Below, one piece after another: positions 11,836-17,526 of a stretch of 64,000 nucleotides of DNA (position 1 is the first letter of the stretch; the number at the start of each line of letters is the position of its first letter). This DNA comes from Elusimicrobiota bacterium (lineage in GTDB: Bacteria > Elusimicrobiota > Elusimicrobia > UBA1565 > UBA9628), in contig JACPFR010000019.1 in the NCBI GenBank assembly GCA_016182905.1, positions 1 to 64,000 of the forward strand. Reading direction: 5' to 3'. The notes below the pieces were generated by a model. That model did no database searches and had not been told where the DNA came from. It worked only from the letters and a program-made list of their open reading frames with translations. The translations under genes and the position numbers were made by a program.

Positions 11836-12197
11836 ATGAAACTCAAAACGTGGCGCGCGCTGAAGCGGCCCCAGGCCGGCTTCACGCTCATCGAGCTGCT
11901 CGTCGTCGTCCTCATCATCGGCATCCTGGCCGCGATCGCCGTTCCCCAGTACTTCAAGGTCGTCGAGAAGGGCCGCTTCTCCGAGGCGACGTCCTGCTTC
12001 TCCACGCTCAAGGGCGCCCAGGAGCGCGCAAGGCCTTCGCGGCCCCGGCCCTGACCGGCGGCGCGACGTACTCGGCGACCTTGCTGCGCAGCCCCGCGGC
12101 CCCGGCCCCGTACGGCGCCTACACCGTGACCTACGTCGGACCCGCCGGCACGCTGAGCTGCAGCCAGACGAACTGCACCACGGACCTGCTGCCCTAA
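11836..12197 (+). pseudogene. Type IV pilin-like gene, frameshifted by a 64-base internal deletion
   Basis: Starts [29 protein letters not shown], with the prepilin cleavage site, Glu5 and hydrophobic helix intact. Aligned base by base with the intact copy at 12317-12739, it lacks 64 bases immediately after the GAGCGC encoding ...QER. The frame shifts and stops at 12054, although the homologous tail ([16 protein letters not shown] ... TTDLLP) remains in another frame to 12197. A GGGAGA site precedes the ATG and a strong terminator follows. Unless the deletion is an assembly artefact, only a 72-residue truncated product can be made. Confidence 0.85.
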
Positions 12198-12210
12198 CGG
12201 CCCGGTCGAG

Positions 12211-12254
12211 AAAACCCCCCCGGGGCGGCTCGCGCCGCTCCGGGGGTTTTTTTT
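12211..12254 (+). terminator. Rho-independent terminator after the first pilin copy
   Basis: A GC-rich stem (CCCCCGGGGCGGC pairing with GCCGCTCCGGGGG, one G:U pair) is followed by eight T. It separates the first and second pilin copies into different transcripts. Confidence 0.9.
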
Positions 12255-12316
12255 GCGGTTTCGCGTCGAAATTGTGTTAGACTCCGGCTTGTAGGATATG
12301 TCGTCTAGGGGGAGCT

Positions 12317-12739
12317 ATGAGGATGGACATCCACCTTGGAAAACGCGCCCGCTCCGGCTTCACGCTCATCGAGCTGCTCGTCGTCGTCCTCATCATCGGC
12401 ATCCTGGCCGCGATCGCGGTCCCCCAGTACTTCAAGGTCGTCGAGAAGGGCCGCTTCGCCGAGGCCACCTCCTGCTTCTCCACGCTCAAGGGCGCGCAGG
12501 AGCGCTACTACCTGAAGAACAACTCCTACGCGGGCACCCTCGCCGCCCTCGACACCGCCTGCGCCGCGGGCAAGAACTTCGCGGTCCCGGCCCTGACCGG
12601 CGGCGCGACCTACTCGGCGACCTTGCTGCGCAGCCCCGCGGCGCCGGCCCCGTACGGCGCCTACACCGTGACCTTCGTCGGGCCGTCCGGCGTGATGACC
12701 TGCAGCCAGACCGACTGCGCCACGGACCTCCTGCCTTAA
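12317..12739 (+). CDS. Type IV pilin-like protein (intact copy)
   Basis: A 140-residue prepilin: short basic leader MRMDIHLGKRARSG, then [20 protein letters not shown] (cleavage G|F, Glu5 present, N-methylation and polymerisation helix), then a small globular domain. The latter contains YYLKNNSYAGTLAALDTACA and TYSATLLRSPAAPAPYGAYT, with a C-terminal Cys pair (MTCSQTDCATDLLP) likely to form a disulfide. A GGGGGAG site is 2-8 bases upstream of the ATG. It could be a major pilin or type II secretion pseudopilin; no assembly genes are in the window. This is the only full-length member of the three-copy cluster. Confidence 0.93.
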   Translation: MRMDIHLGKRARSGFTLIELLVVVLIIGILAAIAVPQYFKVVEKGRFAEATSCFSTLKGAQERYYLKNNSYAGTLAALDTACAAGKNFAVPALTGGATYSATLLRSPAAPAPYGAYTVTFVGPSGVMTCSQTDCATDLLP

Positions 12740-12890
12740 AGCTCCCCCGCTCCCCGGGAGCCGAGGCGAGACTCGGATATGCATTCCGCCAGCGGCATAT
12801 GAGAATATTTACTTAACAGCCGGCGCGAATTTGTGTATCATGTCGCGCGCTTCTGCTAAAATATTTCATCTGACGCACCGGGAGAGAACA

Positions 12891-13206
12891 ATGAAACGGA
12901 ACATCAAGCGGTCCACGGCGGGCTTCACCCTCATCGAGCTGCTCGTCGTCGTCCTCATCATCGGCATCCTGGCCGCGATCGCCGTTCCCCAGTACTTCAA
13001 GGTCGTCGAGAAGGGCCGCTTCTCCGAGGCGACGTCCTGCTTCTCCACGCTCAAGGGCGCCCAGGAGCGCCGCCACGTACTCGGCGACCTTGCTGCGCAG
13101 CCCCGCGGCCCCGGCCCCGTACGGCGCCTACACCGTGACCTACGTCGGACCCGCCGGCACGCTGAGCTGCAGCCAGACGAACTGCACCACGGACCTGCTG
13201 CCTTAA
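12891..13206 (+). pseudogene. Type IV pilin-like gene, frameshifted by a 98-base internal deletion
   Basis: Starts [21 protein letters not shown] after a GGGAGAG site. After the same GAGCGC as in the first copy, about 98 bases present in the intact copy are missing. The reading frame leaves the pilin sequence and would run to 13481, antisense through the next gene, while the true pilin tail continues out of frame to the TAA at 13204-13206. Outside the deletions it is almost identical to the first copy (one base difference in the shared helix-coding region) and less similar to the intact one. Confidence 0.85.
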
Positions 13207-13230
13207 TAGAGCGCGTTCGAGACGGGAGAA

Positions 13231-13266
13231 AAGCCGCGCGGGTCGCCTACCGCGCGGCTTCTTCTT
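13231..13266. terminator. Bidirectional terminator with the convergent gene's stop codon in its loop
   Basis: AAGCCGCGCGG (13231-13241) pairs with CCGCGCGGCTT (13250-13260), with T-rich tracts on both strands (CTTCTTT on plus, TTTTCTCCC on minus). The stop codon of the minus-strand gene (13247-13249) lies in the 8-base loop. Confidence 0.85.
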
Positions 13267-14518
13267 TGAGCAGGGCCTCGCGGAGCTGGCCGCGGGCGGG
13301 AGCGAAGCCGGGGTCGAGGGCGACCGCGCGGCTCCAGAAGGTCACGGGGCCGCTCCAATGCCGGACCTCGCGCCTCGAGCCCGCGATCAAGGCCAGCCCC
13401 AGCGCGCAGGCGACGGCCAGCGCGCGGCCGCCGCGGACCGCGGACCCGGCGAGCACGAAGAAGGCGATGCAGCCCAGGTAGCCGTAGGCCAGGTAGACGT
13501 AGACCATCCCGTCCTGCGCGCCGAGCGCCGGCGGCAGCACCGCCGCCGCGTAGAAGACCCCCGCGAGCGGCAGCGCGGGCCGGCGGCGGCGCTGGAGCCA
13601 CAGGGCGGCCGCGGCGGCGGCGGTCAGGCCGAGGACGGCCCAGGCGGGCGGCCACGGCCGGCTCCAGCCGCCCTGAAGGCCGTAGACCGCGAGATAGTCC
13701 CGAGGCCACAGCAAGGCCCGGGGATACAGCCAGAGGGCGCGCGCGGCCGCGACCGGGGCGAAGGACGGCTCGTAGAGCTCGCGGCTCTTGGCCAGCTGCG
13801 TGATCGAGGCCGCCGCCACGGCGAGGAGGACGAACGGGACCTTCTCGGCCCATACGCCGACGCGCGCGCGGTCGAACATATCCCCGGGCCTCGCCCGCAG
13901 CCGCCCGAGCGGCCAATAATCCAGCGCGACGAGCACGAGAGGAAGGCTGAGGCTCCGCCAGCGGAAGAGCAAGGAGACCGCGTAAAGGCCGAACACGGCC
14001 GCGAGGCGGGCTCGGCCGGTCCCGCCCAGATAGACGGTCACGGCGATCAGGAAGCACGCGGTCGAGAGCATGTCCGGGAGCTCGATGGCCCAGGCGACCG
14101 TGTTGACCTGGATGGGATGCACGCAGAACAAGAGGGCCGCGGCGAACGCCGGGACGTCCGGCTTCGGGTCCCCCGCCGCGCGGAACAGGCGCCGGGAGGC
14201 CGCGAACAGCGCGACGCCGGCGAGCCAGTGCGCGGCGATGTTCGCCGCGTGAAAGGCCGCCGGGTCGAGCCCGGCGAGGGAGAACACCGAGGCGAACGCC
14301 GCCCAGCCCAGCGGCATGTAGGTGGTCAGGTGGGTGGAGAGGAACATCCAGCGCAGGCGCGCGGCGTCGAGGCCGCGGATGCCGGCGTTCTCGACGATCA
14401 GCGCGAAGTCGTCGAAGACGAAGCCGTGCCCGAGGATGGGCCAGAACGCCGCGAGGACCGCCAGGAGGAGCACCGCCGCGACCGAGACGTCGAGGAGCCG
14501 GCCGCGCGGGAGCTTCAT
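13247..14518 (-). CDS. TMTC-like polytopic membrane protein (GT-C fold, short TPR-like tail)
   Basis: A 423-residue protein with about 10 hydrophobic segments. The first periplasmic loop carries the acidic pair typical of GT-C enzymes (GHGFVFDDFALI). HPIQVNTVAWAIELPDMLS matches the second conserved loop of TMTC-type proteins. The C terminus ends with HWSGPVTFWSRAVALDPGFAPA, the start of a TPR. TMTC proteins are O-mannosyltransferases in eukaryotes; in bacteria the substrate is unknown. The protein looks short because its TPR array is nearly absent, unlike the related fragment at 1-708. Start supported by a -10-like hexamer 7 bases upstream. Confidence 0.8.
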   Translation of the reverse strand: MKLPRGRLLDVSVAAVLLLAVLAAFWPILGHGFVFDDFALIVENAGIRGLDAARLRWMFLSTHLTTYMPLGWAAFASVFSLAGLDPAAFHAANIAAHWLAGVALFAASRRLFRAAGDPKPDVPAFAAALLFCVHPIQVNTVAWAIELPDMLSTACFLIAVTVYLGGTGRARLAAVFGLYAVSLLFRWRSLSLPLVLVALDYWPLGRLRARPGDMFDRARVGVWAEKVPFVLLAVAAASITQLAKSRELYEPSFAPVAAARALWLYPRALLWPRDYLAVYGLQGGWSRPWPPAWAVLGLTAAAAAALWLQRRRRPALPLAGVFYAAAVLPPALGAQDGMVYVYLAYGYLGCIAFFVLAGSAVRGGRALAVACALGLALIAGSRREVRHWSGPVTFWSRAVALDPGFAPARGQLREALLKEEAAR

Positions 14519-14531: not shown

Positions 14532-14604
14532 CCATTTCGCGGCTAGGCCCATTGTCCCGATAATAAAGGGACCAAGGACCCTTCATGCCCGGCGCGCGCT
14601 TTCG

Positions 14605-14610
14605 TAATAT
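14605..14610 (+). promoter_or_regulatory. -10 element, leaderless spacing, 969-residue protein
   Basis: TAATAT ends 6 bases before the ATG at 14617. Confidence 0.55.
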
Positions 14611-14616
14611 CGGGGC

Positions 14617-17526
14617 ATGAGCCAACTCCCTCTTCGCCGAGCCGTCGCCGCCGCCCTCTCCCTTTCCCTCGTCTCCACCTGCCCCGGGCTGGCCCCTTAC
14701 GCCGCCGCGCAGTCCATCCGCACCGCGCCCGCCGCGACCGCGACGAGCGCCGCCCCGGCGATGTCCCCCGTCTCCGCCCTCGGCGGAGCCTCGTTCTCGG
14801 TTCCTTCCTTAATGCCCTCCGCGCTGGGCCTCACCGCGAGCCTCGGGGCCCCCGCCGCCGCCCCCGCTCCCGCCGTCCTCGCGCCCGCGGCCGCCGCCAA
14901 GGCCCTCGCGGTCCCCTCCGCCCTGACCGCCGCGGCCGCTCCCGTCGCGGCGCCCGCGGTCACGCGTCCCGCCGCCCTCGCCAGGACCGTCTCCGCCGCC
15001 GCGAAGGAGACCGTGACCGCGCTCGAGGAGGCCGGCCCGATCGCGAACGCCTCCCCCGCCTCCGCCAGCGGCGTCGGCCAAAAGCTCGAGGACATCCTGA
15101 CGGGCGCGCCGGCCCTGCGCCGCGGCTCGGACGTCTCCGCCCCCGCCGTCGGCGAGCGCGTGGGCCTCGGCGACTCGGGCCTGCTCGCGCGTCCCGCGGG
15201 CGACTCGATCCGCGCCGCCGTCGCCGCGTCCGTCCAGGAGTCCGACATCCCGACGCCGCCCGCGGGCAAGGCTCCCGCCCCGCGCGCGCCCAAGGGCCCG
15301 TTCTGGCCGCGCCTGCTCTCCGCCGGTCTCGCGCTCGCCCCCGCCGTCTTCCTCGGCCTGCCCCTGCTCGCCGCGTCGGCCTACCTCGTCGGCGGCCTCG
15401 TGATCGCGACGAGCGTGGCACTCGCCGTCATGCCTTTCTTGAGCGAGGCCTCTCCGAAGGCCCTGCGCGCCGCGCCCGGCCTGGCGCTCTCCGCCCTCGG
15501 CGTCGCCTCCGCCGGCGTGGCTCTCTCCTTGTCTTTCGGCCTCGGCGTAGCCGTCGCCCCCGCCTTGATCTGGACCGGCGCGCTCGCGATCATAGGCGGC
15601 TGGGGCCTGACCCGCTACGGCCTCGGCAAGACCGAGGGCCGCTACGGCTCCTACGGCTCGGTCGAGACGCTCTCCGCCTTCTTCGGCGGCCTCGCCGCGA
15701 TGACGGGCGTAGCGCTCGCCGCGTCCACCCCGCTCGGCTGGACCGCGACCGCCGTCCTCTGGGTCTCCTACCCGCTGGCGACCTTGCTCTGGTTCCACCT
15801 GCCGGGCTGGGTGGGCAAGGGCATGACCGCCGCCGTCGAAGGCCTGTGGCACGGCATCCTCGGCATGACGCGCGTGCTCACCGCGATCCACCGCGACACC
15901 GTCCTCTTCGACCGCCTGTCGAAGTTCAGCGAGCGGCATTGGAACGCGTCCAAGTGGAATGGAGTCTGGCTCGCCGTGATGTGGACGCCGATCATGCTCG
16001 CCGAGGCCGTGATGTACGCGCTGTCCGGCGTCGCCGGCCTGGCGGTCGGCCTGGTCGCCGCGCCCGTCAATTTCCTGTGGGGCGCCTCCGCGAAGCTGCG
16101 GCCCGGCTCCAAGACGAACGTCTACTTCGCGGAGTCAGCCCGCCTCGTCTTCGACAACGTGCAGAACGGCAAGGTCGCGCGCTTCAACCCGCTCGAGGCC
16201 AAGCTGATCCCGCTCGCCAACTCGCCCAAGTTCTTCGTGAGCGCCGCCGGCTCGCTGGGCATCCGCGCGCTGCAGTTGGGCTGGCTCGTCTACGCCGCGG
16301 TCGCGACCCCGCTCCTCTCCGTCGCGGGCTTGATCCTCGCCTTCGGCCGCGCCGGGACCTACGACGAGAAGCGCCACGACCGCCGCTCGCTGCGCGTCGA
16401 CAAGGACGACTCGCCCTCGGAGAAGCCGACCGAGCCCACGGACCCCGAGCCAGGGAACCCGTCGAAGGCGACGATCGTCCCCAAGCTGATCGCCGTCGCC
16501 CTCGCCCTCGTCCCGGCGTACTTCTTCGGCCTGCCGGTCCTCGCGGGCGCGTCCTTCATCCAGATCCCGCTGTACTTCGCGCTCGTCCTGCCGCTGGCCG
16601 CGATGCCCTTCCTCGGCAAGGCCCCGCTGTGGGCCAAGTCCTTCGCGGGCCGCGCCCTGTTCTACAACGGCCTCGTCCTGCTGCTCAACGGCTCGGCGAT
16701 CTGGGTCGGACTGATCGCTTTGCTCGGCGGCTGGGGCTTCGACCGCTGGGTGAAGAAGACCCAGGAGAAGGGCGGAACCTTCGACGAGGCCGAGATCGGC
16801 GCGTTCTTCGGCGTGCTCGGCTCCGCGGCCGCCGTCGGCGCGGCCTGGGCCGGCTTCCTCGGCGGCTGGATCGGCTGGGGCACGCTCGCCCTCGCCGCGG
16901 CCACGAGCCCTTTCCTCCTGATGCACCTGCCGTCGTGGGTCTGGGAAGGCCTGCGCGGCGCGGTCAAGTCCGTCTGGCGCTCGATGGAGGCCTTCCACGA
17001 CGTCCTCGGCTTCTGGCACGAGGACACCCGCTTCCGCTCCAACCTCAAGCGCCACGCCCGCCATTGGCTCGGCAAGACCTACTGGAACGGCGTGTGGCTC
17101 TCCGCGATCTGGGTGCCGACCGGCCTGGTCCAGGCGGCCGAGTTCATCCTCTCCGTCGCCCTCGGCGCCGTCGCCGGCCTGCTCCGCGCGCCGTTCGCCT
17201 TCGCGGCGGCCGCGTTCCGCGACGCCAAATCCGGCTCCAAGGCCGCGCTGTTCGCCACAGGCCTCGTCGACGCCTGGCGGGATTCATCCGACGGCAATAA
17301 GCGGCTCTTCGACCGCCTCGTCTCGGGCCTGACGCCCGCGATGGACGAGGCGACCGCGGAGACCGGCCGGCCCACGGCGAAGGCCGCGGGCGCGTTCCTG
17401 CTCGCGCGCTTCGTCCAGCTCGCCTGGCTCATCGGCGCCGTCGCGATGAACCTGTCGGGCATCGCCTTCCTGATCGGCCTGTACCGCGGCGTCCGCGCCG
17501 CGCTCGCGCCGCCCGAATCCCGCTGA
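14617..17526 (+). CDS. Large internally duplicated membrane protein, function unknown
   Basis: 969 residues. A signal peptide (cleavage near YAAAQS, residue 32) is followed by about 190 residues of Ala/Pro-rich low-complexity sequence, then two homologous membrane halves. Half one begins near residue 229 (FWPRLLSAGLALAPAVFLGL), half two near 619 (VPKLIAVALALVPAYFFGLP). Each carries a matching WNGVWL block (residues 447 and 823) followed by M/IWxP and a hydrophobic stretch. Half one also has RHWNASKWNGVW and half two RHWLGKTYWNGVW. The halves are joined by a charged linker (about 585-615). I do not recognise a family; it resembles no transporter motif I know. It stands alone, with its own -10 element. 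Confidence 0.8.
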   Translation: MSQLPLRRAVAAALSLSLVSTCPGLAPYAAAQSIRTAPAATATSAAPAMSPVSALGGASFSVPSLMPSALGLTASLGAPAAAPAPAVLAPAAAAKALAVPSALTAAAAPVAAPAVTRPAALARTVSAAAKETVTALEEAGPIANASPASASGVGQKLEDILTGAPALRRGSDVSAPAVGERVGLGDSGLLARPAGDSIRAAVAASVQESDIPTPPAGKAPAPRAPKGPFWPRLLSAGLALAPAVFLGLPLLAASAYLVGGLVIATSVALAVMPFLSEASPKALRAAPGLALSALGVASAGVALSLSFGLGVAVAPALIWTGALAIIGGWGLTRYGLGKTEGRYGSYGSVETLSAFFGGLAAMTGVALAASTPLGWTATAVLWVSYPLATLLWFHLPGWVGKGMTAAVEGLWHGILGMTRVLTAIHRDTVLFDRLSKFSERHWNASKWNGVWLAVMWTPIMLAEAVMYALSGVAGLAVGLVAAPVNFLWGASAKLRPGSKTNVYFAESARLVFDNVQNGKVARFNPLEAKLIPLANSPKFFVSAAGSLGIRALQLGWLVYAAVATPLLSVAGLILAFGRAGTYDEKRHDRRSLRVDKDDSPSEKPTEPTDPEPGNPSKATIVPKLIAVALALVPAYFFGLPVLAGASFIQIPLYFALVLPLAAMPFLGKAPLWAKSFAGRALFYNGLVLLLNGSAIWVGLIALLGGWGFDRWVKKTQEKGGTFDEAEIGAFFGVLGSAAAVGAAWAGFLGGWIGWGTLALAAATSPFLLMHLPSWVWEGLRGAVKSVWRSMEAFHDVLGFWHEDTRFRSNLKRHARHWLGKTYWNGVWLSAIWVPTGLVQAAEFILSVALGAVAGLLRAPFAFAAAAFRDAKSGSKAALFATGLVDAWRDSSDGNKRLFDRLVSGLTPAMDEATAETGRPTAKAAGAFLLARFVQLAWLIGAVAMNLSGIAFLIGLYRGVRAALAPPESR

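Follow-up and report, generated by a model that had tools for sequence, protein, structure and literature searches.

Two-repeat (pseudo-twofold) transporters have two homologous halves. TMEM144 (PF07857), a family of the drug/metabolite-transporter (DMT) type, is likewise polytopic and hydrophobic. Leaders that are conserved across otherwise different proteins are also on record: the YSIRK/GXXS and extended autotransporter signal peptides mark secreted surface proteins, and the conserved feature lies before or inside the signal peptide. Here, we analyzed positions 1 to 64,000 (forward strand) of contig JACPFR010000019.1 from an uncultured Elusimicrobiota bacterium (assembly GCA_016182905.1); this whole stretch of 64,000 nucleotides is referred to as the window. 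It encodes one 969-residue membrane protein, hereafter the duplicated protein, in which two homologous units of ∼350–390 residues (together, the core) follow an N-terminal arm. The phylum was reported to be rich in proteins of more than 5000 residues (PMC11573180).

The gene of the duplicated protein is the open reading frame at 14617-17526 on the plus strand, with an ATG start and 969 codons for amino acids. Residues 226–600 and 614–965 share 33.0% identity over ∼350 residues, with a composition-corrected BLAST E-value of 1.3e-35; without the correction, the values are 34% and 8e-49. The local score between the two halves is 407, which is 36, 18 and 15 standard deviations above that of whole-sequence, 20-residue-window and 10-residue-window shuffles, respectively; among 300 shuffles of each type, the highest scores are 94, 145 and 184. 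Comparison of one profile of 17 first halves with one of 17 second halves aligned 343 columns (probability 100, E 7e-67). The initial annotation had proposed an internal duplication of about 380 residues and had named an alignment of the halves as its check; the alignment confirmed that they are homologous. The opening segments that it regarded as shared are located at residues 233–251 and 624–642, and its WNGVWL block begins at residues 447 and 823, which are 221 and 209 residues into the respective halves. With two homologous halves in one chain, the protein falls into the structural class of internally duplicated two-repeat membrane proteins.

The features of the locus are:
14565..14582, plus strand: AAAGGGACCAAGGACCCT, a short palindrome that precedes the gene
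14605..14610, plus strand: TAATAT, a -10-like hexamer 6 nt upstream of the ATG (leaderless-type start)
14617..14709, plus strand: signal-peptide-like segment, residues 1–31, ending in YAAA before Q32 (by eye)
14710..15291, plus strand: Ala/Pro/Ser-rich arm, residues 32–225, cysteine-free; a shared module in the leave-one-out test
15292..16416, plus strand: first repeat unit, residues 226–600, with eight transmembrane-like segments called
15955..15990, plus strand: WNGVWLAVMWTP block of the first unit, where a 47-residue helix begins
16417..16455, plus strand: charged, Pro-rich linker between the units
16456..17511, plus strand: second repeat unit, residues 614–965, with seven transmembrane-like segments called
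17083..17118, plus strand: WNGVWLSAIWVP block of the second unit

In the FastTree phylogeny of the 34 halves, first and second halves are split with a Shimodaira–Hasegawa-like support of 1.0. The identity between first and second halves is 30.7% within one protein and 30.3% between proteins. The split and the equal identities indicate that one single duplication predates the radiation of the sampled family and was followed by no later homogenization.

The start codon at 14617 is supported by the TAATAT hexamer 6 nt upstream; TAATAT (L031) or TAAGAT (L032, L033, L034 and L036) is found at the same place in all five orthologues of the genus that were compared (L, G and C numbers denote loci, genomes and contigs in our numbering). 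In five pairwise comparisons, the ratio of nonsynonymous to synonymous substitution rates (dN/dS) is 0.37–0.51 for the arm and 0.24–0.43 for the core; by this measure, both evolve as coding sequence. For the signal-peptide part alone, which is 32 codons in length and noisier, the ratio is 0.38–0.94, with the value of 0.94 in one of the five pairs. The codon model used for gene calling was trained on genes that include the gene of the duplicated protein, and it gives no independent support for the frame.

To place the protein among known families, we searched it against Pfam and NCBIfam with their curated cut-offs, and against PHROGs with E ≤ 0.1; none of them gave a match above cut-off. The sole weak Pfam match is TMEM144, which scored 18.1 bits against a gathering cut-off of 26.2 over 37 residues (305–341); the core alone scored 17.6 bits. 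Across the 17 family members, Pfam at E ≤ 0.01 returned TMEM144 in three and DUF6251 in one (E 0.0037). Different from a genuine TMEM144 protein, the similarity is thus sub-threshold, short and limited to three of the 17 members. PDB sequences gave no match at E ≤ 0.001 and a single match at E 1.2. The initial annotation had stated that the protein belongs to no recognized family, which agrees with these searches; a clear match of either half to a transporter family, the outcome that it had set against its own proposal, was looked for and not found, TMEM144 being the sole, sub-threshold candidate; membership in a known transporter family was therefore rejected. Literature searches, whose coverage leaves out most subscription journals, retrieved no report of the core family or of the arm module.

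Structure models were also built for the first unit and for the core. The AlphaFold2 model of the first unit, built from 32 half sequences, is confident, with a predicted local distance difference test score (pLDDT) of 89.5 and a predicted template modelling score (pTM) of 0.79. In order, it contains six helices of 19–28 residues, one of 25 residues and two short ones, followed by a 47-residue helix that starts at the WN motif, two helices of 16–18 residues and one of 40 residues. Foldseek found no PDB match at E ≤ 0.001 for either model; the best E-values are 0.17 for the first-unit model and 1.2 for the core model. The best VIA-align Z score, 9.9, is within the range that is uninformative for helical bundles with this tool, and it is well tested only over residues 4–171 of the unit. 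Based on the models, no fold could be recognized, and a new fold is not established. Like two-repeat transporters, the protein contains two homologous halves, which are parallel by their charges. Different from them, it matches no sequence family or fold, and each half would continue after a six-helix part with very long terminal helices, of 47 and 40 residues in the first-unit model.

The family was then traced across 340 genomes of the phylum. A core profile match was present in 24 of them, all belonging to the same order or closer; 20 of the 24 show two halves, and three (G001, G042 and G046) are cut by contig ends. Our own genome contains one copy of the core only. A profile of the half matched 25 genomes, which are the same 24 carriers and G123; the G123 match (E 0.0068, with two stops in 65 residues) was taken as chance and rejected as a single-half relative outside the family. 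In G006, which is 98% complete, the arm is in one open frame with the start of the second half (L020, C7 26923-30714), the first half is absent, and the remainder of the second half lies beyond a 10-N gap; this one-half version may be a true deletion or an assembly fault. Scanning of named genomes gave 17 relatives from 68 candidate stretches, 16 of them titled Elusimicrobia or Elusimicrobiota and one titled 'bacterium'; the scan relied on two peptide patterns, which remote relatives in other phyla could escape. As far as it was searched, the protein is lineage-specific, as had been suggested. The core is a new order-level family within one known kind, the internally duplicated polytopic membrane proteins.

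Two other readings were considered and rejected. Phage origin was dropped, as no relative was encoded by any of 17 pattern-matching viral_contigs stretches and PHROGs gave no match. A programmed split between arm and core was also dropped: the break in L038 is at a run of N and that in L035 is an indel-like frame change in GC-rich sequence, therefore assembly error is the simple reading. In L035 (7483-8200; G011, a complete chromosome), arm and core are in different frames, probably due to an indel error; in G004, they are likewise in separate open frames.

The topology of the core was analyzed by its charges. One simple hydrophobicity scan called eight transmembrane (TM) segments for the first half; for the second half, in which the third and fourth look merged, it called seven. 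All TM and gene calls came from simple scripts, not from trained predictors. The numbers of Lys and Arg (K/R) before and after helices 1–6 of the first half are 4/0, 0/2, 2/0, 0/3, 2/0 and 0/1, which alternate; in the corresponding part of the second half they are 2/0, 0/3, 2/4 (the merged segment), 1/0 and 0/2, alternating as well except for the merged segment. By the positive-inside rule, therefore, the end of the arm and the linker between the halves would be cytoplasmic, the halves parallel and the crossings of each half even in number. TM1 of the duplicated protein has four K/R before it and none after it, which is not the pattern of a Sec-exported protein with its N-terminus outside. More K and R precede TM1 than follow it in 16 of the 17 family members; the exception (L047) is a mis-called helix, as the one called first is actually the second. 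Taken together, the charges suggest that both units start in the cytoplasm and form one parallel pseudo-dimer, each with six clear crossings and probably two more. Gly, Pro, Ala, Leu and Trp make up most of the columns that are conserved across at least 90% of the 34 halves, and the conserved motifs are GWG, HLPxW, DT and WNxxWLxxxWxP; under the charge-based topology, the motifs would be located mostly at the cytoplasmic membrane face. Few conserved charged residues are located within TM helices, and this speaks against a carrier of the classical ion-coupled type.

The arm is not specific to this protein. A profile of the N-terminal 50 residues found 17 places in our own genome at E ≤ 0.0101, including the gene of the duplicated protein; two of the places (L095 and L099) are cut by contig ends. 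The module is ∼200 residues in size and sits on mostly large proteins. The duplicated protein has the signal-peptide-like start with SPG...AxAQ that identifies an arm. Its E-value of 2e-19 in this search is given by construction, since the profile was built with this gene and its orthologues included; when its arm was left out of the model, it scored 76.1, compared to 49.9 ± 5.5 for 300 shuffles, none of which was as high. For the leave-one-out test with the first 34 residues removed, 17 arms were used: the set omits L095 and two matches at E 1.6 and 2.9, and it includes L063, whose arm was not among the 17 places and was detected separately. In 14 of the 17, the score exceeded that of every one of 300 shuffles with preserved local composition; in the remaining three, 1, 3 and 6 of the 300 shuffles reached it. 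Beyond the signal peptide, the arms share an L-x-L-x-x-SLSAPS-like block; one LFDGS-like motif is found in 13 of the 17, using a broad regular expression made post hoc from the alignment. Of the 340 phylum genomes, 39 contain the module at E ≤ 1e-6, and 36 of these 39 belong to the same order; nine candidates per genome were scored, which makes these counts lower bounds. The Ala/Pro-rich N-terminal region described by the initial annotation is real, but it is no unusual low-complexity extension of one protein, being common to at least 17 otherwise unrelated proteins of the genome.

The proteins that carry the arm are diverse. By Pfam, which for L099 covers its visible part, they include M50 with S8, L-amino-acid-ligase ATP-grasp domains, Rce1/CPBP, PspA, prolyl oligopeptidase, M48 with MFS, FtsH (AAA and M41), uridine-kinase-like with adenylate kinase, a borderline WD40, and PepSY with a sub-threshold MFS match. 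L090 (G000 C42, 45421 downward; L090:163-9822) is 3220 residues in length and contains three VWA domains, TPRs and DUF58; it resembles a Bat-type operon fused into one chain. L096 (G000 C26, 9469 onward; L096:270-8333) is 2688 residues in length and combines S8, HEAT, GH77 (4-alpha-glucanotransferase) and amylo-1,6-glucosidase (debranching enzyme); here, glycogen enzymes that are usually cytosolic sit behind a signal-like leader. The MFS match of L063 is just below threshold. L089, L091 and L093 gave no Pfam match at E ≤ 1e-4; by eye, multi-TM repeats were read in L089, MFS-like sequence in L091 and in the front part of L092, and HAD-like sequence in L093. Like the YSIRK/GXXS and autotransporter leaders, the arm is one conserved leader across otherwise different proteins; different from them, ∼170 residues of the module follow the signal peptide, and its cargo includes polytopic and ATP-using proteins. 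Most likely, many proteins of the lineage use the arm as a presequence that is specific to it and serves in membrane targeting or in processing.

Where the arm resides is the point of conflict. By eye, the leader resembles a Sec signal peptide in its n, h and c regions and in its AxA-Q site. A later TM helix was called in 15 arm proteins. Among these, K/R are more numerous before TM1 than behind it in 13, the opposite is seen in one, and one is even. In the sole reverse case (L101), the helix was called within the arm. These 15 cases share one homologous leader and were counted with no control set; the first TM call of L093 is 559 residues in, and in L063 a later helix was scripted as TM1, the earlier candidate having four positive charges before it and three after. 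In the FtsH with an arm (L097), three lysines precede the first TM helix and two K/R follow the second; these fit a cytoplasmic ATPase domain, a location that an outside arm with two TM helices would not allow. Two K/R also lie in front of the second helix. As our genome has three other M41 genes and one other adenylate-kinase gene, the copies with arms are spare copies. The other adenylate-kinase match (G000 C60 11086-11631) is inside an 811-codon open frame, perhaps another fusion. The description of the N-terminal region as exported thus holds for its signal-peptide look and is contradicted by the charge pattern of 13 of the 15 arm proteins. The leader may be an unusual one that does not export, the proteins may violate the positive-inside rule, or a separate membrane system may be involved.

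What is unusual, and of more interest than the core, is the arm module and its conflicting topology. A structure of the core family, which has no recognized fold, would be informative; more important, one leader on at least 17 unrelated proteins, against the positive-inside rule, is a testable puzzle of protein targeting. If the arm were truly exported and cleaved, the multi-TM domain would have to insert with its N-terminus outside, against the positive-inside rule. The signal-peptide-like N-terminus with its AxA-Q site is what speaks for such export; we consider it unlikely given the charges before TM1 in those 13 proteins, and because FtsH and adenylate kinase, whose ATP-binding motifs look intact by eye, would face away from ATP. 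It is conceivable, and in our judgement very improbable, that signal peptide and ∼170-residue Ala/Pro/Ser-rich part together act as a bipartite presequence, which would route proteins to a second, ATP-containing membrane system with their membrane domains normally oriented. Its cargo would be the spare FtsH and adenylate kinase, the glycogen-debranching and MFS-bearing fusions, and the two-unit protein. If true, this would be a bacterial counterpart, in principle, to the bipartite presequences of complex plastids.

For the function of the core, we analyzed its surroundings. In the genus of the window, gene order is largely conserved and consists of pilin-like genes, a minus-strand membrane gene, the duplicated-protein gene, a response regulator and a saccharopine-dehydrogenase-like gene, all named by eye; the minus-strand membrane gene was not found in L034, and L035 and L037 showed no response regulator beside the gene. 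Beyond the genus, the context is a different one: L039, L043 and L047, from two other families, have FtsX/MacB-type permease genes, an ABC ATPase and one conserved exported protein, which has no Pfam match, ahead of the gene; the permeases were Pfam-tested in L039 only, and the ATPase was read by eye. Related TPR/kinase-like proteins are found downstream, by eye, in L039, L041, L042 and L043. The neighbourhood is the sole functional hint, and with low confidence it points to the handling of envelope lipids or lipoproteins.

As a whole, the observations are best explained, tentatively and at somewhat less than even chance, by an order-specific inner-membrane protein with two parallel multi-TM units, perhaps part of an envelope lipid machinery. 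Weakly, the two units might form equivalent sites that handle lipid or another hydrophobic component of the envelope; G006, with arm and second half only, suggests that one unit may be functional by itself, perhaps as a homodimer. Several observations weigh against this explanation. The K/R numbers of the last two helices are 0/2 and 1/5 in the first half and 0/2 and 2/2 in the second, and the count of eight TM helices per half is unsure because the charges past helix 6 do not alternate. The arm, which resembles a cleaved Sec signal peptide followed by a long tail, would be expected outside, contrary to the charge-based orientation. The full-core model is moderate only (pLDDT 80.2, pTM 0.56). 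The permease neighbourhood is present in three of nine compared loci outside the genus and absent from the genus of the window itself; two of the three, L039 and L043, show a LolA-like gene, whereas the sequence of L047 begins within the cluster, and one extra open reading frame intervenes in L039. Of the earlier suggestion of a lineage-specific envelope protein, the lineage-specific part is borne out and the envelope part is plausible but unproven.

Two other functions have to be weighed against it. The protein could be a new two-repeat carrier for small molecules in the inner membrane, with the arm as an accessory; two parallel homologous units and the weak TMEM144 (DMT-type) similarity of the three members would fit. 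We regard a carrier as rather unlikely, due to the shortness and low score of that similarity, the absence of any transporter fold at Foldseek E ≤ 0.001, and a conserved set that is mostly Gly, Pro, Trp and interfacial residues with few TM charges. An envelope scaffold, structural or for assembly, which organizes partners through a patch on the cytoplasmic face and transports nothing, would account for the Trp/His/Asp motifs that both halves conserve close to the membrane interface and for an order-restricted family free of recognized enzyme domains. However, no partner was identified, and the purifying selection on the core (dN/dS 0.24–0.43) fits an active protein equally; we take a scaffold as distinctly improbable.

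One further family of arm proteins from the same order contains three multi-TM repeats of ∼365 residues in ∼1400 residues (L089, at G000 C38 13300-17536; L066; L110-L119), and it was found in 12 of 53 genomes searched, our own included. Like the duplicated protein, L089 and L066 carry the same kind of arm and repeated multi-TM units and belong to no Pfam family. BLAST of the three-repeat family against the duplicated core was not significant; profile comparison gave probabilities of 18 and 26 in local mode and 80 in forced global mode, and 0.3 for a reversed local control. Homology between the two was therefore not adopted, as these comparisons are suggestive only.

Upstream of the gene, the pattern of the palindromic element at 14565-14582 matched twice in the window, compared to 0.07 expected, the pattern being derived from the site itself; like elements are found upstream of several orthologues in the genus. 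This palindrome is GGGACCAAGGACCC-like, and many GGCC/CCTAGG-type elements precede other arm genes. Leaderless starts are not specific to arm genes, and as their hallmark they were considered and rejected: a TANNNT hexamer ends 4–9 nt before the start in eight of 16 arm genes and in 10 of 25 other window genes that have an upstream region of their own, counted with no shuffle control. By the same counts, leaderless transcripts may be common in the genome. Tandem type-IV-pilin-like genes with near-identical N-termini are located beside a two-component pair, both in the window (11836-13481) and in L031 (4430-6193). In the GC skew of the window, mostly negative values give way to mostly positive ones near 32 kb and return near 58 kb, perhaps reflecting a change in gene direction.

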